Below are positions 7,356 through 48,472 of a stretch of DNA of 64,000 bases, piece by piece (the first letter of the stretch is position 1; the number at the start of each line of letters is the position of its first letter). Origin of the DNA: Bactericera cockerelli. Lineage: Eukaryota > Arthropoda > Insecta > Hemiptera > Triozidae. The notes under the pieces are model-generated. The model had not been told where the DNA came from and made no database searches. It saw only the letters and a program-made list of their open reading frames with translations. The stretch is from contig CM044963.1 in the NCBI GenBank assembly GCA_024516035.1, forward strand, positions 23,691,049 to 23,755,048, written 5' to 3'. Position numbers and translations under genes: made by a program.

Positions 7356-7560
7356 TAATAATAATAATAAGACTCGTTAGTGAAAGGTTAGTGCTCAAAG
7401 CATTTTCTACCACCTAACCCTCAGAATCTTATTATTATGTGGTCACAAAGTCCAATTAATGAGGAAAAATTCTTGCACTGGGTGGGATTCGAAGCAACGG
7501 ATCCCTACGCTACCTGGATTACCAGACTAGCGCGTTAACCACTTGACTACCAGTGCACGG
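7356..7560 (-). mobile_element. SINE family D, full length
   Basis: On the minus strand the tRNA-like head (TAGTCAAGTGGTTAACGCGC, B-box region GCTTCGAATCCC) is followed by GAATTTTTCCTCATTAAT, GACTTTGTGACCACATAATA and GGGTTAGGTGGTAGAAAATG. It ends in (ATT)n, here the plus-strand AATAATAAT at 7358-7370. An internal part near the 3' end is shortened. Confidence 0.85.
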
Positions 7561-7830: not shown

Positions 7831-8255
7831 AAAGTATTTAATAAATAAGAGAAAAGGAGTATCATGCAAAACATTCTCACATCTTATTAAGAAAATAATT
7901 ATAATATTTTATCAAATTTACTGAAAGAATATTATTATCCTTTTGAAATAATAAAATATTGTTAAAAGCAAAGAAGCGAAAAAACATTTGAATAAAAAAT
8001 GAAAAGAGAACTTTGAGTGCTGACTGAGAAATGGCAGGCGAGTCAGCTCTATGCTGACACAGAAATGGTCGCTTCTTTATTAATATTTATACAGGGTAGG
8101 AAAAGAATAGGAGAAATTAAAAGACTTTAGTACTTCTCTGACTGAAAACTTGATTGGAAAGATACAAATTGAGCTCAATGCTGACACAAATATAGTCACT
8201 TCTTAATTATTGTTTATACACTATACACCTATACAGGCTGAAAAATAAATGATAA
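7831..8255. other. Intergenic stretch with a weak internal duplication
   Basis: GCTCTATGCTGACACAGAAATGGTC (8045-8070, quoted in part) resembles GCTCAATGCTGACACAAATA at 8172 and each is followed by CTTCTTTATTAAT or CTTCTTAATTATT. No gene is visible. Confidence 0.5.
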
Positions 8256-8260
8256 TCACT

Positions 8261-8440
8261 ATCAACAGAAAAGTGAGAAGTTGTACTAGATGTACAAGAA
8301 TATCAGAACATGCCTGGACAGCTGTTTCGAGCTTATTTTTGCTCTCATCAGCATGCAGGTAAAAGTTCTGAATATCCACGCCATCAACTAACCTCTCTAT
8401 TTGAATCAGTATAAACAGAAAAGTGAGAAGTTTTACTAGA
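8261..8440 (-). ncRNA. Hammerhead ribozyme unit (type I), retrozyme-like
   Basis: On the minus strand the conserved core CTGATGA is followed by stem II GAGC/GCTC with loop AAAAATAA, then GAAA, the minimal stem III ACAG/CTGT, and TC at the expected cleavage site. The sequences on either side can form stem I (TTCAGAAC before the core, GTTCTGA after it, plus pairs next to the core). Every invariant core base is present. The unit repeats its own end: AACAGAAAAGTGAGAAGTT occurs at 8264 and again at 8414, so the monomer is 150 bp and the locus holds a little over one. With this stem III a dimeric transcript would be the better self-cleaver. Confidence 0.8.
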
Positions 8441-8831
8441 AAAATAATGGGATGAAAAAAAATAATATATAATTAAATATTCTTTATAATTATGTTTTCC
8501 GTTGAAATGTTGTGACACTTCGCGCATGACGTATGGAACTTGTTTGGTTATTTAATGATTTTTCAATTAAAAATGATAACACCCTGTAAATGAAAATAAG
8601 CGGAAATACCCATTCAGTGTCTATTCTCACCCTGCAGCTAACGACTGTGCTGAATGGGAAATGGGAAACTGCAGACTTTTTTACTTCTATTCAAGTCAGA
8701 ATGGTGTGATGTTTATTTTGGCTTTTCCATACGTGATAATACTTGATAATACCATCTCTTTACAAGTATTAAGAGCAGAAAAAACCGTATTATTATTGTT
8801 ACCTAAAATTATGATTTCACTAATTAAAATT

Positions 8832-9012
8832 GCCAGCGTCGATGGCGTGTTGAATGCACCGAATCACCGAAGTTAAGCAACGTCCAGTGAGTTAAAGATT
8901 TCGTGATGCTGGTCAATGTGGGTAGCAGTTTTGTGAGTTTCCTGCGAATGGAGGTAACACACCCCCGTCTCAAGCTGACATAGCTGTGGAAAGGGTCGTA
9001 AAACCCAAAAAA
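8832..9012 (+). mobile_element. SINE family E (5S-like), internally deleted
   Basis: Starts GCCAGCGTCGATGGCGTGTT and continues GATCACC-like ATCACCGAAGTTAAGCAACG, the region resembling the 5S rRNA internal promoter. The tail has GTGAGTTTCCTGCGAATGGA and ACACCCCCGTC. About 10 bases of the head and part of the mid-body are missing compared with the copy at 33137. Confidence 0.8.
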
Positions 9013-10130: not shown

Positions 10131-12303
10131 TTTTTTTTTTTTTTTTTTTTTCTTTATTTGTTACATTACTACATACATTCACAAATATAATTATGGCAAA
10201 AAATGTATTTTTAAACAACCCTGTCAGCTGAAAGCTGGTGGCGGGTGTTTATAAAATATATAAAAAGAAATATATTGGTTTCTTTGAAAACTAAAAAAGG
10301 AGGGGAAAGAGGAAAGAAATATTATAATACATATAAAAAAAAACGAGAAAATAGAGAAAAAGAGGTAAAGATGTAAAGTCCAATAAAACGTAAATGGAAG
10401 AAAAAGAAATATCTCGTTATGGTAAAGAAGTGTGGAAAAAAGGAAGAAGAAAGAAGAAATGAAGGAGAAAAGAAAAAAAAAAAAAAGAAAGAAAAAAAAA
10501 TAGTGTTTCTATTTTATATTGATCATAGTAGATATTCGTAATTATGAAATATTAAATAGGTGCATCTCATCATAATTAATAATTAAATATATACAAGTTA
10601 TACATCTCTTGTATAAATAATAATTAAAATTATACAAGTCTCATGGAAAAAAAAGGTTTATAATTTTAAGTGATATATTAAAGTTTTTCAAATTTTTTAT
10701 CTCTATTGGTATTATATTTAATATTTTTTGTCCGAGGTAATAAAAGTGACGTTTGGTAAGTGATTTATGTATTAGTCGAGTTTCTGTCTGTCCGTGTTGT
10801 CTTGTTCGGTACATGTTAGTGTTGGTTGTCCAGTAATGTTCATATTTTAGAGAGTAGATTATTAATTTGTACAGGTATAGGTCTTTTAAAGGAAGTACGT
10901 CTAGGTGTGTGTAAAGGTCATTGGAGTTGTGTTGTCTGTCTTTTCTTAAAATTATTCTCAGTATTATATTTTGTGCTCTTTTAAGTGGTTCAATAACATT
11001 ATTATATGCACCTCCCCAGGATGAAATACAATATTGAATTAGGGATTGCACAAAAGCAAAATATATAAGCCTGAGAATATTTTCATTACAAGTTTTAGTA
11101 AAATTATTAAAAATGTACATTAGATGTCTAAGTTTAGTTTTAATGTTGTTAGTGTGGTATGTCCATTTTAAGTGTTGATCTAGTTCTATTCCCAAGTATC
11201 TAACGGTAGATTGTTTTTGTAGTTGTGTTAGTTGATTTTGTTCTGTTTGTAAGTTAAGTGTTTTTTGTGGTGGAGGTTGTCCTGTTGATGTTATTGAGAA
11301 GGTCATGTAATTTGTTTTTTGTAAATTCAGTTGTAATGACATAGTTGAATACCAGTTGTTAATGTGCGTTAAGTCTTGTCTAGCAATATTGAAAGTTGAG
11401 TCCCAGTCTGTTCCTTCATAGCATATGCATGTGTCATCAGCGTAACAAAATACTTTTCCTTTACTTATTTTAGGGATGTTATTTATATAAATGTTGAATA
11501 GGATACTTCCTACAACAGATCCTTGAGGGATTGAAAATTCGTTTCATGTAATTGTGTCAGACAGGTGGTTATATAATTTAACTTTTTGTTTTCTATTTTT
11601 AAGATATGATTGAAACCATTGTAGAGCTTTTTCTTTGATTCCTATATTTATTAGTTCTTTGATGAGAATTGTATGGTCAACGCTATCATAAGCTTTTTTC
11701 AAGTCTAAAAATGTGGCAATTATTTTTTTATTGTTATCTATTTGTTTGTGTAAATACGTTGTTAATTGCAATAAAGCATCTTCTGTTCCTGTATTTTTTT
11801 TGAACCCGAATTGTTGGTCATTTATAATATTATTTTTTTCTAGATAGTGGTCAAGTCGTTTTTGTACAATTTTTTCTAATATTTTTCCCACATTTGACAA
11901 AACAGCAATGGGACGATAATTTTGTAGGTCTGATTTATTACCTTTTTTGTGTATTGGAGTTACAATAGCTGTTTTATATATTTCTGGAAAAACTCCTTGT
12001 TCAAGACTTAAATTGAAAATATGAATAAGGGGTTCAATTATGTGTGGAAAGATTCTTTTTAAAGTGGTAACAGATATTCCATCATAGCCTGAAGCACAAT
12101 TGTTTCTTAATTTCATCAAAATTTTGTGAATCTCATTTCCATTTGTGTTAGTGAAAATATTTAAACTATCATTTGTGTTGGTAATTAAGTTTTGATTTGT
12201 TAAAATGTTAGTTGTGTAGTCTCTTGTTTTTTCTTTAATTTCATTTGATAGATTTAAACCTACATTGCAGAAATAATTATTGATATGGTTTGCTGCTATG
12301 ACT
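10131..12303 (-). mobile_element. 5'-truncated non-LTR retrotransposon
   Basis: Read on the minus strand the element starts abruptly near 12303, runs through a reverse-transcriptase frame, and has an A/T-rich 3' region of about 490 bp with a poly(A) tail (plus-strand T-run at 10131-10151). Loss of the 5' part (endonuclease domain) and a terminal poly(A) are the normal result of incomplete target-primed reverse transcription. No clear target-site duplication was found. The clade is uncertain; the RT and poly(A) tail would fit a Jockey-like element. Confidence 0.85.
10641..12302 (-). pseudogene. Reverse transcriptase, partial, one in-frame stop
   Basis: One reading frame, open from 12302 down to the stop at 10641 except for a TGA at 11544-11546. 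It has the fingers region (TPIHKKGN..., NYRPIAVLS), motif A with the catalytic Asp in FLDLKKAYDSVDH, the IPQGSVVGSILFNIYINN stretch, and motif C as YADD (11433-11444). A thumb/connection region with YLGIELDQHLKW and SLIQYCISSWGG follows. The first catalytic Asp and the Asp pair are intact. The N-terminal endonuclease and the start of the RT are absent because the copy is truncated just upstream of CNVGLNL. Since frame is kept before and after the single stop, the insertion is fairly young. It does not look able to move by itself. Confidence 0.9.
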
Positions 12304-12809: not shown

Positions 12810-13015
12810 TTGATAGAAACTCACAAATCAGCTACTCAAATTAACCTCACCCAGACTCAGTAAGCCCGAGAACAGCCAACAAGAGGGTTCAAGTTTGAAT
12901 ATTCACCCATCCACTCCATCCAAATGATAGCCTCGCCTGCCTCGCTCGACGTTCTTTAACATCAGTGACTGAATGAGAACTGATACATTCAACGTGCCAT
13001 CGACGCTAGCTTCAC
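12810..13015 (-). mobile_element. SINE family E, long-head variant
   Basis: The minus strand reads GCTAGCGTCGATGGCACGTT at the head and keeps a section (GGATGGGTGAATATTCAAAC) that most E copies have lost. That section resembles the 5S segment after the C-box. The tail has GGGTGAGGTTAATTTGAGTA and a gap before the end. Confidence 0.7.
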
Positions 13016-16321: not shown

Positions 16322-16466
16322 AGGCAACCTCCGTGGCTCAGTGGTCAAGAGCATTGGTTGCTGACCCGGAGGTTGCAGGTTCGAATCCCTGCCGGAGTGG
16401 AAAATTGTAACCGAGCTTCCCATTTCCGGATGGCATGGATGTAAAGGTAAAGTGCCCTGAAGTAAT
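16322..16466 (+). mobile_element. SINE family C, left part, interrupted
   Basis: A good family C copy: head CTCCGTGGCTCAGTGGTCAA and GGTTCGAATCCCTGCCGG, body GGCATGGATGTAAAGGTAAA. A family A SINE interrupts it after TGCCCTGAAGTAAT (16453-16466), and it resumes at 16748. Confidence 0.9.
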
Positions 16467-16795: not shown

Positions 16796-16870
16796 TTTTT
16801 TTTTTTTTACTAAAAATATTTTTATTTTTTTTACTAAAAAAAATACCTTAACGCGCCCTCTGGTGGGAAA

Positions 16871-17036
16871 CATTCTCACTTTTCTGTTTATAGTGATTAA
16901 AATAGAGAGGTTAGTTGATGGCATGGATATTCAGAACTATTAGCTGATGAGAGCAAATAAGCTCGAAACAGCTGTCCAGGTATGTTCTGATATTCACGTA
17001 CATCTAGTACAACTTCTCACTTTTCCGTTTATACTA
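16871..17036 (+). ncRNA. Hammerhead ribozyme unit (second copy)
   Basis: CTGATGA (16944-16950), stem II GAGC/GCTC around AAATAA, GAAA (16965-16968), stem III ACAG/CTGT and TC, with cleavage expected after C16976. GATATTCAGAAC before and GTTCTGATATTC after the core can pair as outer stem I. The bases immediately next to the core pair less well than in the 8.3-kb copy. The terminal motif TTCTCACTTTTCTGTTTATA occurs at 16873 and again, slightly changed, at 17014, so the monomer is 141 bp. Confidence 0.75.
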
Positions 17037-17107
17037 ACACTGATTATACATTTTTATCAGCTGTTAAGTGATTATTTGGATTAACAAGTTCTGTTTCATG
17101 AGTCGGC

Positions 17108-18799: not shown

Positions 18800-19568
18800 G
18801 GACGACACCTGATTCCGTCCCGCGAGTTTTTTCTCTCAGGTAGTCGATACTCGATTCCGTCCCGAACCTCTCAGATCAATCACTGAATTCCGTCCCGTCA
18901 CTTATCTTATGCACCTATGTACTATGTACATAAGTACCTGATATTATGTATTAGGCTATGTACAAGTTCGGTGCGAAAAATAAAAAAATGTATGAATTCG
19001 GTGCCGCCTAAAAAAGGTCATGTATGAATTCGGTGCCCTGGTACTTGCCCTGATGATCAGGTAATTATAGATTTTTTCCTTATAGGCATGGCCTTCAATT
19101 AATAAATCGAGGCATGGCCTATATTGTATTTTACCTAACCCTACTATAAACCCAAGGCATGGCCGTCATTGTATTTTACCTAACCCTACTATAAACTCAA
19201 GGCATGGCCTTCATTGTATTTTACCTAACCCTACTATAAACCCAAGGCATGGCCGTCATTGTATTTTACCTAACCCTACCATAAACTCAAGGCATGGCCT
19301 TCATTGTATTTTACCTAACCATACTATGAACCCTAGGCATGGCCTTTATTTTTTTATTTTACGTGATTGAAAATAAACTGATGAAAAATGTTGAATTTAT
19401 AATTTATGTATTTATTTATGTATATAGGACGGAACATATGGGACGGAATCGGGTATTGAACCCTTAAGATGACCGGACGGAATTAGGTGTTAAAATATTG
19501 ACCGGACGGAATCGACGGGACGGAATAAGGTGAAAAAAAGGTAAATGGGACGGAAAACGGTGCCTCCC
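18800..19568. mobile_element. TIR element 1 with internal 45-bp minisatellite
   Basis: The 8-bp AGTTGCAT occurs on both sides (18792-18799 and 19569-19576). The termini form an imperfect inverted repeat of about 22 bp (16 matches) ending in TTCCGTCCC/GGGACGGAA. Subterminal regions repeat ATTCCGTCCC on the left and GGGACGGAAT on the right. The middle holds a module with AATTCGGTGCCGCC followed by the minisatellite. No coding capacity. The 8-bp duplication would fit hAT-like or related superfamilies, but no transposase is present to confirm. Confidence 0.65.
19110..19350 (-). repeat. 45-bp minisatellite inside TIR element 1
   Basis: Copies start with GGCATGGCC at 19156, 19201, 19246 and 19291, an exact 45-bp period, with TTTTACCTAACCCTACTATA in each. 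It is the inverse complement of the arrays at 37418 and 39355. Confidence 0.95.
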
Positions 19569-21002: not shown

Positions 21003-21575
21003 ATAACTTTGATTAACTTGAACTACTTCAATTTTTAATGCTTTCTTGCCAACGTCAATGGCGCGTTGAATGCACCGGTTCTCTTAAGATCACCGAAGTT
21101 GAGCAACGTCCAGCGAGGTGAAGACTTCGTGATGCTGCCATTCCGGCCCTCGTCAAGTTGTCTGAGGTAAATGTCGGTATCAGGTTTGTGAATTTCCTGC
21201 GAATGGAGGGTAACACGAAAAAAAAAAAAAAAAAAATGCTGTCTGTCCCTCTTCAGTGTCCATCCTGTATACTTGCAACACAACTACAACCGATTTAGAG
21301 TTATTATCAGTCATCTTGGACGCGGGCAACTAAGTGTCGGAACATACATATATCGGACTTGTCCTGAATTGTCTGCCGTGCTACCACTTAGGAGGTCCTT
21401 TCTGTCAAAACCATTAGTGGCGGATCATCAGGCGATACCCGATGTCTCATCCGCGCCGTCTGAGGCATGAGCATTCAACGCGCCATTGACGTTGACAAGA
21501 AAGCATTAAACATTGAAGTAGTTCTTAAAAGTTTTTCAAAGTTATAATATTAGGGGTTTTACCTTCATGTCTCAT
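20988..21575. repeat. Large inverted repeat around a SINE E
   Basis: The left arm (about 20988-21073) includes AACTACTTCAATTTTTAATG and CGTCAATGGCGCGTTGAATG. The right arm (about 21470-21575) carries the complement: CATTCAACGCGCCATTGACG, AAGAAAGCATTAAACATTGA and AGTAGTTC, then AGGGGTTTTACCTTCA further out. The arms are nearly identical over about 50 bp and weaker outside, with about 400 bp between them. Confidence 0.8.
21052..21232 (+). mobile_element. SINE family E with A tail
   Basis: A good copy: GCCAACGTCAATGGCGCGTT, CACCGGTTCTCTTAAGATCA, CCGAAGTTGAGCAACGTCCA, CGTGATGCTG, GTTTGTGAATTTCCTGCGAA and GGAGGGTAACAC followed by an A-run at 21219-21236. AATGCTTTCTTG before it and AATGCTGTCTGT after it may be a worn target duplication. 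Confidence 0.85.
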
Positions 21576-30668: not shown

Positions 30669-31440
30669 CTTTTTTTTAATATTTTTTTTTACATTTTTTT
30701 GTATACCTTCAAAAGAATAGTCATATTGGATAGTTTGTTATGTGACAGATTTATTAGCCAGAAGATATACGTTATGACGACTCCATTACATATTTCTCTA
30801 AGATACTCGCTTACCTTGCAAAAGACTCGGGGTTTGGACTATAAATGGATGCTTTTTTAAATATCTTTTTCAATGCATTCTAATCCAATTTTTTTTCTTC
30901 ATTTTCACAACTTCTTCTATCATTGCTCTTGTAAGTGGAACTAACAAAATCGCTTCGTTAGAATACTAAAAAAAAAAAAAAAAAAAAACAATTCTAAAAG
31001 AAAAAAAATAGGTTAATTTTATTTTATTTTTTTCGCAAACATTTTGGCTTTCATCTTTCATGAGTTTTTATTAAAATTGTGATTCGACGGCAAGAAAGTT
31101 ATGTACTGCGACATTAAAAAAAAAAATCTTAAAGGACGCCGCACCTCTGAGTGCCTCGGGTGTTTGGGTCCTTTTAGAAAGTTAATTCGGCCCTGTGGAT
31201 AACTTGCAATCTTTGCTGCTACTACCACCACACCGACAGACGGTAGAAAGTTTTGGGAAAACATTCTCTGATTTATGTGCGACAGAGGAATGACCTTTCA
31301 CGGGTTTGCATGCTATGACCTTTGACTTTGAATAATATTTTATATCAGCATAAACAGAAAAGTGAGAACTTGTATCGGAGGTTTTTACTTCTTTTATATC
31401 GTCGCCTAAGAAGCATCTCCGCCTATCTCCACTGATTTCA
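30669..31440. other. Intergenic stretch with a hammerhead-unit end fragment
   Basis: At 31347-31371 AGCATAAACAGAAAAGTGAG matches the terminal motif of the hammerhead units. GAGATAGGCGGAGATGCTTC-type sequence (minus strand at 31405-31425) is echoed on the plus strand at 32372-32398. No gene. Confidence 0.5.
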
Positions 31441-31455
31441 AAAATGGGATTTTGG

Positions 31456-31733
31456 GTAGTCACTGTGGCAGAGCGAGTTAGCGCGCTAGGCATTGCACAC
31501 ATGGTGACCTGGGTTCGATTCCCAGCGGGGGAGGATTTTTTCTGCTCTGTACTTGGATGTTCGGGGTCCACTCATACCTCGTGAGGAAAAATGAGTAGCT
31601 GCTTTAATATGAAGCAGCGACCAGTGGCAGAATCTTAGGCAAAAATAATACAAGATATTGTAAATTAAAGTGGTAAAGTCCTATGATTCTGCGCTACCCA
31701 CTAAAATTGTGACATAATAACACAAAGAAAACG

Positions 31734-33136: not shown

Positions 33137-33354
33137 AGCCAGCGTCGATGGCTCGTTGAATGCACCGGTTCTCGTAGTATCACCGAAGTTCAGCAACGAG
33201 GTGAAGACTTCGTGATGCTGGCATTCCGGCCCAACCCAGGATGGGTGAGGTTAATGTGGGTAGCGGGTTTTTGAGTTTCTTGCGAATGAAGGTTAACATC
33301 ACCCCCGTCGTGATATGACCAGTATGAGCAGTTGAAAGTGACGTTAAATCAAAA
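33137..33354 (+). mobile_element. SINE family E, near complete
   Basis: GCCAGCGTCGATGGCTCGTT, GAATGCACCGGTTCTCGTAG, TATCACCGAAGTTCAGCAAC, GAGGTGAAGACTTCGTGATG, CCAGGATGGGTGAGGTTAAT, CCCCCGTCGTGATATGACCA and GTTGAAAGTGACGTTAAAT, then an A-run. The 5' half resembles eukaryotic 5S rRNA around GGTTCTCGT...GATCACCGAAGTTAAGCAAC. Confidence 0.92.
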
Positions 33355-37134: not shown

Positions 37135-37983
37135 GGGAACTTCACGATTCGGCCCAAATTACCTGAGGAGACCTTTTCCATAGCATGATTCGTCCCAAAA
37201 CACACTATCAAGTTTTGATCCCACACAAAAAGTCCCACTTTCATTCTAAGAAAAAGTCCCACTTTCATTCCACCAAAAAATCCCTATAAAATAGTATGGA
37301 AACGTTGCCCTGAAAGAACTGAGAACAATGGCGATGTTCACGATGTTATTGTTTTGAACTATAGTAACAGTCATCTTTGTTATCAGTGTTTATTTGAGTG
37401 TTTGACAGTAGGGTTAGATAGAAGGCCATGCCTCAAGAATATAGTAGGGTTAGGTAAAATACATAGAAGGCCATGCCTCAAGAATATAGTAGGGTTAGGT
37501 AAAATACATAGAAGGCCATGCCTCAAGAATATAGTAGGGTTAGGTAAAATACATAGAAGGCAATGCCTTAGGTTTATAGTAGGGTTAGGTAAAATACATA
37601 GAAGGCCATGCCTCAAGAATATAGTAGGGTTAGGGTTAATACATAATATAAGGCAATGCCTCAGGTTTATAGAGGGTTAGTTAAAATGCATAGAAGGCCA
37701 TGCCTTAAGAATATAGTTGGGTTATGTAAAATACATAGAAGGCCATGCCTCAAGAATATAGTAGGATTAGGTAAAATACATAGTAGGCCATGCCTAATAC
37801 ATAGAAAGCCAAAGCCTGATATACATAGAAGGTAATTCCGAAATTTAATGTTGAATAATAAAAAATCCCTCAATATGTACGGTACTTAGAATGTTGCACT
37901 GGGCCGAATCGTTCGGTGACCTTTTTTACCTGAAATCGAAAACCTTTTTCATAAACCTTTTTGGGCCGAATCGTAATGCGCCC
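37135..37983. mobile_element. TIR element 2 with internal 45-bp minisatellite
   Basis: The 8-bp GCCCTGAG flanks it at 37127-37134 and 37984-37991. The ends GGGAACTTCACGATTCGGCC (37135) and the complement GGGCGCATTACGATTCGGCC match at 17 of 21 positions. A second CGATTCGGCCC-type motif lies inside the right end (37903). No coding capacity. The terminal sequences differ from TIR element 1, although the duplicated target has the same length and the internal array is the same. Confidence 0.75.
37418..37800 (+). repeat. 45-bp minisatellite inside TIR element 2
   Basis: GGCCATGCC at 37469 and 37514 shows the 45-bp period; each unit has ATAGTAGGGTTAGGTAAAAT and ACATAGAA. About eight units, the last ones diverged. 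Frames on both strands are a by-product because 45 is a multiple of 3. Confidence 0.95.
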
Positions 37984-39130: not shown

Positions 39131-39825
39131 AGGTGAGTTCGGTGCGAAGATTACCCGCACCTTTTTCGCATGTATAAATTCGGTGCCGCCTAAAAAAGGT
39201 GATGTATGAGTTCGGTGCGGTCCTAATGACTTATAAATTGATTGTTTTTTTATAATGTACTCTGTTGCTTGTTAACAGTCATCCTGCTGTTATTAAGTTA
39301 GTAGATTATGTTGTAGACAGTTACATTCAGCAAGGCTGTCCATTTCCTCCTTGAAGGCCATGCCTAGGGTTAATAGTAGGGTTAGGTAAAATACAATGAA
39401 GGCCATGCCTTGGGTTTATAGTAGGGTTAGGTAAAATACAATGAAGGCCATGCCTTGGGTTTATAGTAGGGTTAGGTAAAATACAATGAAGGCCATGCCT
39501 TGGGTTTATAGTATAGGGTTAGGTAAAATACAATGAAGGCCATGCCTTGGGTTTATAGTAGGGTTAGGTAAAATATAATGAAGGCCATGCCTTGGGTTTA
39601 AAGTAGGGTTAGGTAAAATACAATGAAGGCCATGCCTTGGGTTTATAGTAGGGTTAGGTAAAATATAATGAAGGCCATGCCTCGGTTTATTAATTGAAGG
39701 TCATGCCTATAAGGAAAAAATACTATAATTACCTGATGATCAGGGCAAGTACCAGGGCACCGAATTCATACATGACCTTTTTTAGGCGGCACCGAATTCA
39801 TACATGACCTTTTTTACAAGGTGAG
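39131..39825. mobile_element. Inner module shared with TIR element 1
   Basis: GTTCGGTGCG and AAATTCGGTGCCGCCTAAAA at the left face GGCACCGAATTCATACATGA (twice) at the right. The stretch 39690-39815 is the inverse complement of 18985-19100 in element 1, including GATGATCAGGGCAAGTACCA. Confidence 0.7.
39355..39690 (+). repeat. 45-bp minisatellite inside element 3
   Basis: GGCCATGCC at 39401 and 39446 (45-bp period), then six or so further copies; GGGTTTATAGTAGGGTTAGG and TAAAATACAATGAA in each. More uniform than the array at 37418. Confidence 0.95.
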
Positions 39826-42957: not shown

Positions 42958-43207
42958 AAAAATTATTAGGTAATATAAGAATACCTTAAAATTTCTCGAA
43001 TAGTGAAATAATAATTAGGTATAAAATAATTATTTAGGTCTGTTATCGAACATTGAAAACAAATATTTGGAAGCTCCTTATGAATTGGAATTTAAACTGA
43101 ATACGGCCATGCCTCGGCGTAACGCAGCTGGTTTCCTTTGCAGTACACAAAGATCGGTTACCAGATCGGCTAAATTTTAAAAGGGCAAAACAAATAGACA
43201 AAATATG

Positions 43208-43376
43208 TTTTCTGTTTAAAGTTTAATTAAAATAGAGAGGTTAGTTTATGGCATGGATAATCAGATCTATTACCTGCCGATGAGAGCAAAAATAAGCTCG
43301 AAACAGTTTGTCCTGGTATATTCTGATATTCATGTATATCAAGTACAACTTCTCACTTTTCTGTTAGTACTAAACT
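43208..43376 (+). ncRNA. Hammerhead ribozyme unit, decayed copy
   Basis: GATGAGAGC, AAAAATAA, GCTCGAAACAG and TGTC at 43278-43312 keep most of the layout. The first core base pair position is changed (CCGATGA in place of CTGATGA) and stem III is ACAG/TTTGT, so this copy should be inactive. The TTTCTGTT end motif recurs at 43209 and 43358 (149 bp). Confidence 0.6.
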
Positions 43377-44025
43377 AATGATAAAAGACAAAATCGAGAT
43401 AATCAAGTTCGATTAAGAACTTCATTAAATTTGTCTCCATCAATATGTAAAATCTAGACTTAATAATTTTTCAAAGATATCAAAAGAATGTCTATTTATT
43501 TATTTCGCTCTAAATCTCCATCATACCTAGTATAACTTAGAAATTTATTAATAAAAATGACACACCTTCTTGGGTACCAAAATGGTAACTGTACCATTTA
43601 TTTTACATAGATTCAAATTCAATTTTTTATGTACCTAACTCGTTATGTTTAATCTGAAGTACTTTTTAGAAACTCCCCAAGGGACGCCATAGACCGAAAA
43701 AAAAACATTGCAGTAGCGAAGTTCTGATATTCCGCTAGATTTTATTAAATTAAGCCATGGTCACAGCACAGCTGACTTTATAAAATTCATCTTTACTTGA
43801 AACTTTAACATACATACTTCACGTGCCCTTCAAGGATGCAGTTTTTGGTTCTGTATAAATTATTTTACATAATCATAACATGTTTTATGTATGATTATGT
43901 ATGATTGTATACCTATGTATTATTATTATTATTATTAAACAATAATAATTATGTAATATGTTTCCTTATGTAATATGTTTCCTTCAATTTATAAGCGACT
44001 TAAACGCGTAATAATCTATACATTA
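43377..44025. other. Intergenic stretch, no gene
   Basis: AT-rich with (ATT)n at 43919-43934. Nothing coding. Confidence 0.45.
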
Positions 44026-44407: not shown

Positions 44408-44598
44408 CAGCCATGGCGATGGCGCGTTACATGCCCCGGTTCTCGTAGGATCACCGAAGTTAAGCAACATCCAGCGAGGTGAAAACTTCGTTATGCTGGC
44501 ATTCCGACCCATCCCAGACTGGGTGAGGTTAATGTGGGTGGCAGGTATGTGAGTTTCCTGCGAATGTAGGGTAACACCCCCCTCGTGTATGGTCATAA
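44408..44598 (+). mobile_element. SINE family E, left part, interrupted
   Basis: GCCATGGCGATGGCGCGTTA, GCCCCGGTTCTCGTAGGATC, ACCGAAGTTAAGCAACATCC, CCAGACTGGGTGAGGTTAAT and GGGTAACACCCCCCTCGTGT, then GGTCAT, where a family D SINE begins. The end of the E tail is at 44770. Confidence 0.9.
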
Positions 44599-46234: not shown

Positions 46235-48472
46235 GTGAGATACTGGTGGTCAAGTGGTTAACGCGCTACTCTGGTAATCCAGGTAGCGAAGGGATCCGTT
46301 GGTTCGAATCCCAGCCAGTGCATTTTTTTTTTTTTTTTAATACTTTTTCGTCATTTACTTTTTACAAACATATAACAATATTTAACAAGCACAAAATCAC
46401 AAATAAAATAATATTATATACATTGATAAAATGCTTAAAATTGTTTTTTTTTTTTTTTTTTTTTTAATACTTTTTCGTCATTTACTTTTTACAAACATAT
46501 AACAATATTTAACAAGCACAAAATCACAAATAAAATAATATTATATACATTGATAAAATGCTTAAAATTGTTTTTTTTTTTTTTTTTAAATTGTAGTAGA
46601 AGAGACCCGAAGTGCGCAAGCATGTGTTGGGTCTCTTATGGATATTAAAAATAAAATGTATAATATAATTTGAGTTTAAAAATATTTATAGTTAAAAATT
46701 TAATTTCCTTATTACATAATATTTCTAACACTGTTTTATTCTTTTTGCTTTTTCCTTATAATTAGTAATTTGATAGTATTTATTATTTTGTTTTTGACGT
46801 TTGAGCATTTTAACTATTCCCTTATTCTTAATCTAACAACTTTAGGGTCAAATGTTTTGGTAGTCAAATGGTTAACGTCAAATGTTGTCAAATATTGGTA
46901 GTCAAATGTCAAATATTGGTAGTCAAAAGGTTAACGCGCTACTCTGGTAATCCAGGTAGCGGAGGGATCCGTTGGTTCGAATCCCAGCCAGTGCATGAAT
47001 TTTTCTTCTTTAATTTCAGTATGTGACCACATAATAATACCTAAGACTCTGAGTGTTAGGTGGTATAAAATGCTTTAACAATATTAATCTCGCTTGGTGG
47101 TTACCTTCTACCAAAGAGTATTATTTTTATTGAAAAAGTACAATTGGGAGCCAAAAAAGAAATAAAATACACGAAGTCACAATACCTACCTACCTTTGAT
47201 ATCTATTGATATGATTGAAGTAAAATAGGTATTAGTTGTGATTTCATGGGCTAGGGGCATATTTAATACATTTTTATTTTATTTGACAAATGGTCTTGAC
47301 ATAAATAATTATGAGTGATCCGTCAGTAAAATAAATTTAAAAAAATGATTAAAATTCAGATATCAAGGGAAAATGAGTAAATGAGTTATCCATCTTATTG
47401 TGTCATTGTAAAGAAAATATATGTATGTTACTGAGCTGTTGCATACATGTAAAAAAATGAGTTACCTACTTCATCTGAGACTATGATATTGACTATGACA
47501 AATAAATATGATAAGAAATAAGAAAACATAGAGGAAACCTAGTTATGATTTAGATTATTAAAAATCACCAATCTTTCCCCAACTTGATGTTTCTTAACTT
47601 ATATGTGATCTGACGAGAGCTACTTTTTCAATACGAAATATCTAAAGTCTACTATTTAAGAACAGTCGTAGGTATGCGTATAAAACGCCCGCACCACGCC
47701 AGATGAACACATTATCTACTTAATTTCTTGCACATTGCATACCTAAAGTGTAAACAGGCGTTCATGAAAAATGTCAGATTGCAACAATTTTATGTTTCCG
47801 AAATGTATAAAATATATATGAATTGTATATAAAGTGATCACAAATAGAATATTAAAAAACAATACTTCCTATATACAATAGGTAACAGAAAGTAAAAATA
47901 TATAAATCAGTTGATAATGTTTTTCCCTATTCCTTTCCCTCAGGTGAATGGTCCAATCATGGCGGTGGCGGTTCTCAACGGTAAGACTGTCAAGGGAACG
48001 GTCCTCTTCCTCCAACCCCAACCCCAGGGACCCGTCCTGATCAGTGGAAACATCACTGGTCTCACCCCTGGAGACCACGGGTTCCATATTCACGAGAAGG
48101 GCGACATCAGCCAGGGCTGTGCGTCCATGGGCGGCCACTACAACCCCTTCAATGTGAGTATCTTGCCCCTTCATTGTTATTATCTTCCCTCTTCAATCTG
48201 AGTAAGTCGGTATTTTTCTCCTTGAATGTGATCATAGAAAATCCATATTATACTACTTGTAGGTACCCTAGTTCCTATTTCTTTCAAAGAAATAGGTGAG
48301 TTTTCTAAAATAAGACGAAATGATAAATTTTATGTTTTGTCATCTTATTGCTTGAACACCCCGTATCCTGTTAGAATAACTAATAACATGGCGGGTTTCA
48401 AATAGCTATTAATTGGCGATTGACTGTCTTTTTATTGCCAATTCTCAACTTGATAGCCATTATTTTCACCTA

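Follow-up and report, generated by a model that had tools for sequence, protein, structure and literature searches.

A hammerhead-bearing repeat and its neighbours

The window, by which we mean the whole 64,000-nucleotide stretch that was analysed, contains three full copies of a ~150-bp repeat, each with a single hammerhead (3/3 copies), together with a fragment that consists of the terminal-repeat block alone (Table 1). Pairwise identity among the full copies is 85-89% (blastn, MAFFT and nhmmer), and no similarity extends past the unit into their flanks (blastn). The original prediction, made from copy 1, had called the unit dispersed, which the two further full copies and the fragment confirm; its broader view, that a 150-bp repeated unit holds a type I hammerhead, extends slightly beyond one copy and belongs broadly with metazoan retrozymes or hammerhead satellites, is also supported. 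The fragment could have arisen by 5' truncation of a copy or through recombination, and it sits inside a 129-aa open frame (31182-31571, minus strand) that has no Pfam match.

Around the copies, the window appears to be animal DNA, rich in repeats and carrying ordinary genes. Pfam matches were sought at E 0.01 in 77 open reading frames of at least 75 aa, with low-complexity frames omitted, a scan that decayed or shorter pieces may escape. RVT_1 was found in two frames, Cu/Zn superoxide dismutase in two and a lipase region in one, besides three weak single matches. The two RVT_1 frames adjoin each other and form a LINE-like reverse transcriptase, one piece of which has 37 homologs, and one of the superoxide dismutase frames (Sod_Cu, 47896-48198, plus strand) matches its domain at E 1.6e-18.

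Table 1. Positions of the repeat copies, their parts and the neighbouring reverse transcriptase in the window
Feature	Positions	Strand	Extent or partner	Basis
Copy 1	8253..8440	-	150 nt unit + about 37 nt; 1.22-1.27 laps of sister units	local alignment to circular sister units; direct repeat; nhmmer (8428-8255, E 2.3e-58, copy 1 itself being part of the profile)
Type I hammerhead core of copy 1	8317..8351	-		direct reading; descriptor match; RF00163 22.3 bits over 8311-8357
5' terminal repeat, copy 1	8404..8440	-	37 nt	direct-repeat search, 92% over 37 nt
3' terminal repeat, copy 1	8254..8290	-	partner of 8404..8440, spacing 150 nt	direct-repeat search
Candidate target-site duplication, 5' side of copy 1	8439..8449	-	partner 8240-8251	register picked by eye
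LINE-like reverse transcriptase, two adjoining ORFs	10641-12302	-		RVT_1 E 1e-13 and 3.5e-22
Copy 2	16868..17042	+	141 nt unit + about 22-27 nt	blastn 89% to copy 1; circular alignment 16868-17035; nhmmer 16874-17040; last 7 nt placed by eye
Hammerhead core of copy 2	16944..16976	+		descriptor match; HH9 25.0 bits of 52; alignment
End fragment, terminal-repeat block alone	31336..31374	-	unit positions 6-43, 39 nt	nhmmer E 5e-4 at 31380-31344; alignment
Candidate target-site duplication, 5' side of copy 3	43192..43204	+	partner 43383-43394	12 matches, 1 gap
Copy 3	43204..43378	+	149 nt unit + about 9-15 nt	blastn 85% to copies 1 and 2; circular alignment 43208-43371; nhmmer 43206-43375; outermost bases placed by eye
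Hammerhead core of copy 3, altered	43277..43312	+		alignment; HH9 23.5 bits of 52

The hammerhead core and its conservation

Read on the minus strand from 8351 to 8317, copy 1 presents CTGATGA, GAGC-AAAAATAA-GCTC as stem II, GAA, ACAGCTGT and C, in agreement with the invariant core that had been predicted there in this order (CTGATGA, a 4-bp stem II, GAAA, ACAGCTGT and TC). From the hammerhead consensus, cleavage is predicted between 8317 and 8316. Stem I was also expected to pair and does so in part: its outer arms are CAGAAC and GTTCTG, whereas an A-G mismatch lies beside the core. RF00163 (Hammerhead_1) aligns to copy 1 along its full 45 positions, a single stem I pair being mismatched, and scores 22.3 bits (E 0.0065, 500-base search), a match that nevertheless falls below the gathering score of 34. 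Given this score and the mismatch, the earlier description of the hammerhead as complete is too strong.

Copy 2 has all core bases intact and, compared with copy 1, is 7 nt short in the 5' strand of stem I. Copy 3 reads CCGATGA instead of CTGATGA and has one additional base in stem III (alignment). The stem I 5' strand of copy 1 carries 4 nt more than that of copy 3 (alignment) and its stem I spacing resembles the Rfam HH9 layout, while in copy 3 the motif CCTG could reach the stem I 3' strand by a shorter pairing route. With stem I, the core or stem III affected in each copy, all three ribozymes look damaged.

A search of the whole window against Rfam returned no ribozyme family at its gathering score. 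In a permissive search of the window, the hammerhead rows were exactly the three copies, each matched by RF02275 (Hammerhead_HH9, gathering 52) with 25.0 bits for copy 2 (16936-16995, E 0.071), 23.5 bits for copy 3 (43260-43333, E 0.21) and 21.3 bits for copy 1 (8297-8371, E 1.2). HH9 is the best-scoring model at copies 2 and 3 and shares with them UUAC upstream of stem I; the copies reach about half of the gathering score or less, and we claim no membership. On the covariance model alone, the hammerhead call is marginal.

A full descriptor, which asked for the core, a 4-pair stem II, GAA, two or more pairs in stem III, a base 17 other than G and five or more of six pairs in stem I, found two matches in the window as against two in 150 first-order Markov windows of 64 kb each; relieved of its stem I condition, it found two as against eight in 150 simulated windows. 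The two matches are copies 1 and 2, copy 3 being lost through its one core change, and since they are homologous they amount to one event and its duplication. This conserved duplication is a stronger argument against chance than the descriptor count. Both matching copies carry the elements of a type I hammerhead core, namely CUGANGA, stem II, GAAA, stem III, UH and an open stem I. The half-motif CTGANGA..GAAA was discarded as evidence: it occurs nine times where 4.48 are expected, and 10 of 100 shuffles reach nine, which is not significant.

Identical gap-free columns in the alignment of the three copies number 31/33 in the core, 56/68 to its left and 49/63 to its right, gapped columns (3, 26 and 3, respectively) being excluded. 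The core thus compares with the remainder as 31/33 to 105/131 (one-sided Fisher p 0.044, three copies). Freely varying core bases, which would have spoken against the original prediction, are not what these columns indicate, although the core change and the stem III insertion of copy 3 do lean that way. Outside the window, a pattern of stem II and core matched four viral contigs, 0/4 of which had a match that reached an Rfam gathering score, and a pattern of the left flank of the unit matched 0 viral contigs; a longer core pattern matched 0 contigs in a bacterial and archaeal collection, where an animal repeat is not expected.

Predicted folds of the ribozyme, its dimer and a circular unit

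In the energy model, adopting the hammerhead fold costs copies 1, 2 and 3 an extra 14.7, 12.4 and 3.9 kcal/mol, respectively, over the minimum, compared with 0.1 kcal/mol for the Rfam HH9 consensus and 5.0 kcal/mol for a type I consensus that includes two assumed bases. In the rival fold predicted for copies 1 and 2, the core CUG and the stem III CAG are paired. Because nearest-neighbour energies omit the core's own contacts, such values allow comparison and give no forecast of activity. The hammerhead region also has a low linear folding energy (z -4.07), but we do not count this as evidence, as the minimum is not the hammerhead fold.

It had further been proposed that the tiny stem III would favour cleavage as a dimer. 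Modelled as a tandem dimer with an 8-bp stem III, the double hammerhead is indeed predicted to be better than two single ones by 6.0 kcal/mol in copy 1 and 7.2 kcal/mol in copy 2; yet it remains 14.4 and 13.0 kcal/mol, respectively, above the unconstrained minimum. According to PMC7229834, axolotl motifs whose helix III has one or two pairs cleave poorly as monomers and well as dimers, and a monomer with a 2-bp helix III and a tetraloop was weak (22% after one hour). The same text likens the two-pair form to invertebrate hammerheads, which it reports to be efficient monomers, and the dimer preference may therefore be put forward only loosely.

When closed into circles, the units (141, 149 and 150 nt, with GC of 0.362, 0.322 and 0.373) are predicted to be more stable than their shuffles, with z of -3.7, -3.8 and -2.6 and with 0, 0 and 3 of 200 shuffles as stable. 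The predicted circles of copies 1 and 2 form a hairpin, CUUUUCUGUUU / AAAUAGAGAGG, opposite the hammerhead arm, and they block the ribozyme core, an arrangement that is unusual outside plants and some mussel circles according to PMC7229834. The predicted fold of copy 3 is without this hairpin.

Shared ends and candidate flanking duplications

Circular mutual alignment shows that the full copies span 1.06-1.27 laps of the unit, so that each has a short terminal direct repeat and overshoots one unit by about 9-38 nt. For copy 1, the repetition of the unit end after 150 bp had been predicted and is borne out by the two terminal repeats in Table 1. A different direct repeat, of 49 nt and 84% identity (8045-8093 / 8172-8220, plus strand), adjoins copy 1.

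In the register of copy 1, the three copies start at 1, 8-9 and 19 (within 18 nt) and, over six pairwise alignments, end at 38/33 (copy 1), 33/29 (copy 2) and 33/27 (copy 3). The ends thus occupy an 11-nt arc (27-38), or a 5-nt arc by a narrower choice of alignment, and most of them fall within the 10-nt loop of the predicted hairpin (positions 29-38 of copy 1). When points were placed at random on a circle of 150 nt, they fell within an 18-nt start arc in 4.6% of trials, within an 11-nt end arc in 1.8% and within both in 0.07%, or within both in 0.014-0.017% with the 5-nt end arc, figures that refer to three copies and to arcs chosen after the data had been seen.

Candidate target-site duplications flank copies 1 and 3. 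At copy 1, whose flank is T-rich, the best-scoring alignment uses a register more distant from the copy than the one in Table 1 and is equalled by 325/20000 random flanks; for copy 3 the corresponding number is 370/20000 (1.6-1.9% for the two candidates). No duplication was found at copy 2, where 13213/20000 random flanks score equally. Target-site duplications of metazoan retrozymes, when present, are expected to exceed 4 bp. We also considered a DNA transposon and rejected it, finding no inverted repeat of at least 12 nt at the ends of copy 1.

These ends bear on the proposal that the unit is a piece of a tandem array. No array of the ~150-bp unit is present in the window (nhmmer), and the three copies share their start and end rather than being random pieces. 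One could still imagine fragments of a satellite array elsewhere, ejected by DNA-level recombination or as eccDNA and inserted with no retrotransposition, given that hammerheads are known in satellite DNAs, that copy 2 has no target duplication and that circular DNA has been raised for schistosome repeats (PMC8490949). Such fragments would be expected in random permutation, however, and not with common ends, and the candidate duplications at copies 1 and 3 also speak against this origin, which we regard as very improbable.

Relation to known hammerhead elements

The nearest counterparts are the metazoan non-LTR retrozymes of coral, mussel and axolotl, for which PMC7229834 gives a unit of 150-450 bp, a type I hammerhead and GC below 50%. 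Such retrozymes are also expressed as linear and circular RNA. The repeat resembles them in its type I hammerhead, unit size and low GC (141-150 nt, GC 32-37%) and, furthermore, in having no visible LTRs, a weak helix III and a self-paired circular fold. A clear difference lies in copy structure: whereas these retrozymes occur as dimers to large multimers in that account, the copies here comprise 1.06-1.27 units with one hammerhead, and two or more tandem hammerheads are found in 0/3 copies in the window. As this trait was sought in the window and not found, we do not file the repeat as a full retrozyme.

Hammerheads are also carried by Penelope-like elements, whose minimal hammerheads share with the repeat the type I layout, a very short stem III and occurrence as dispersed motifs (PMC7761336). 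The copies might accordingly be remnants of a larger Penelope-like element, that is, pieces of its hammerhead-bearing pseudo-terminal repeats, since such elements carry tandem minimal type I hammerheads and dispersed motifs are common in the same account. The original prediction had likewise pointed to Penelope terminal repeats. Nevertheless, the three copies share no sequence beyond the unit (blastn), and 0/77 scanned frames carry a GIY-YIG or other Penelope-like domain in Pfam, the only reverse transcriptase among them being the LINE-like RVT_1 pair. We consider this origin improbable.

A third comparison concerns SMalpha and other hammerhead W-elements of Schistosoma, small dispersed hammerhead repeats described as SINE-like in PMC8490949. 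By analogy, the copies could derive from a linear transcript with fixed ends and the same short sequence at both, mobilised by a LINE without any circle. The common starts and ends of the three copies and the single hammerhead in each would fit such an element, and SMalpha itself, SINE-like and bearing a type I hammerhead, offers a precedent. Unlike SMalpha, a 335-bp element in that source, the unit here measures ~150 bp and has no convincing Pol III box on an uncalibrated comparison. The best sense B box has 3/9 mismatches in each of the three copies and the best sense A box 2-3 mismatches, one antisense A box having 1, all on this same uncalibrated comparison with the box consensus sequences. 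Moreover, a linear SINE has no need of the same sequence repeated at both ends of each copy. This explanation seems to us rather unlikely.

Instead, we favour, with some confidence, the view that a single small, non-autonomous retroelement of the metazoan retrozyme kind left the three copies as old insertions at dispersed sites, reverse-transcribed from an RNA circle or multimer. Counted for this retrozyme-like reading are the homology of the three copies, the fitting unit size and GC, the conserved core columns, the descriptor excess, the shared ends, the candidate target duplications at two of three copies and the stable circular folds. Against it count the single hammerhead per copy, the Rfam scores below gathering, the unfavourable hammerhead folds, the missing target duplication of copy 2, the missing hairpin of copy 3, the choice of arcs with the data in view and the small number of copies, only three. 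The element probably works like a metazoan retrozyme and descends from one.

Minimal type I hammerheads often occur as dispersed motifs in animal genomes (PMC7761336), so that a hammerhead standing alone is no novelty as such. In the consulted passages of PMC7229834, PMC7761336 and PMC8490949 there is no mention of a single hammerhead between shared ends. What the three copies represent, a family in which each copy has one hammerhead, short terminal repeats and ends that are shared instead of permuted, may be new.

A possible route of insertion

Under the retrozyme-like reading, an ancestral transcript that carried at least two hammerheads would have cut itself, and a host ligase would have closed the ~150-nt monomer into a circle. 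A reverse transcriptase acting in trans (LINE or Penelope-like) would then always have started in the same place, namely the hairpin loop that faces the ribozyme, completed one lap and gone slightly beyond before stopping early in the second. Insertion of the cDNA with a short target duplication would have followed. The start in the hairpin loop, the single lap and the early stop are suggested by the position of most 3' ends within the 10-nt loop. As a single-hammerhead copy could not release a monomer circle by itself, such insertions would be dead ends unless transcribed beside another copy.

The narrower idea that the copies record where the enzyme began and halted on a hammerhead RNA circle, with initiation at the apical loop, a full lap and arrest about 10-40 nt into the second lap at its own cDNA, is offered tentatively, and we hold it to be doubtful. 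For the return of hammerhead circles to the genome, a circular template has been proposed and Penelope-like elements are named as no more than a strong candidate for the enzyme in PMC7229834. If the idea were true, the copies would support, at the level of DNA, the circular template on which the retrozyme model relies, and copying of one lap and a little more would explain why a ~150-bp family consists of single-ribozyme copies. Insertions that share start and stop would mark the points at which the reverse transcriptase enters and stops.

Other repeats in the window

Five 5S-rRNA-like stretches, at 8832-8914 (+), 12925-13010 (-), 21048-21140 (+), 33138-33223 (+) and 44409-44499 (+), score 23.5-37.4 bits, under the Rfam gathering score of 38, with a mean column identity of 69%; they probably constitute a 5S-derived SINE family. 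Two tRNA-like stretches, 16329-16397 (+) and 7474-7556 (-), lie just over the gathering score of 29 with 34.5 and 29.2 bits and may be tRNA-derived SINEs. Three arrays, at 19110-19350, 37418-37795 and 39352-39690, appear by eye to be one 45-bp satellite present in both orientations.
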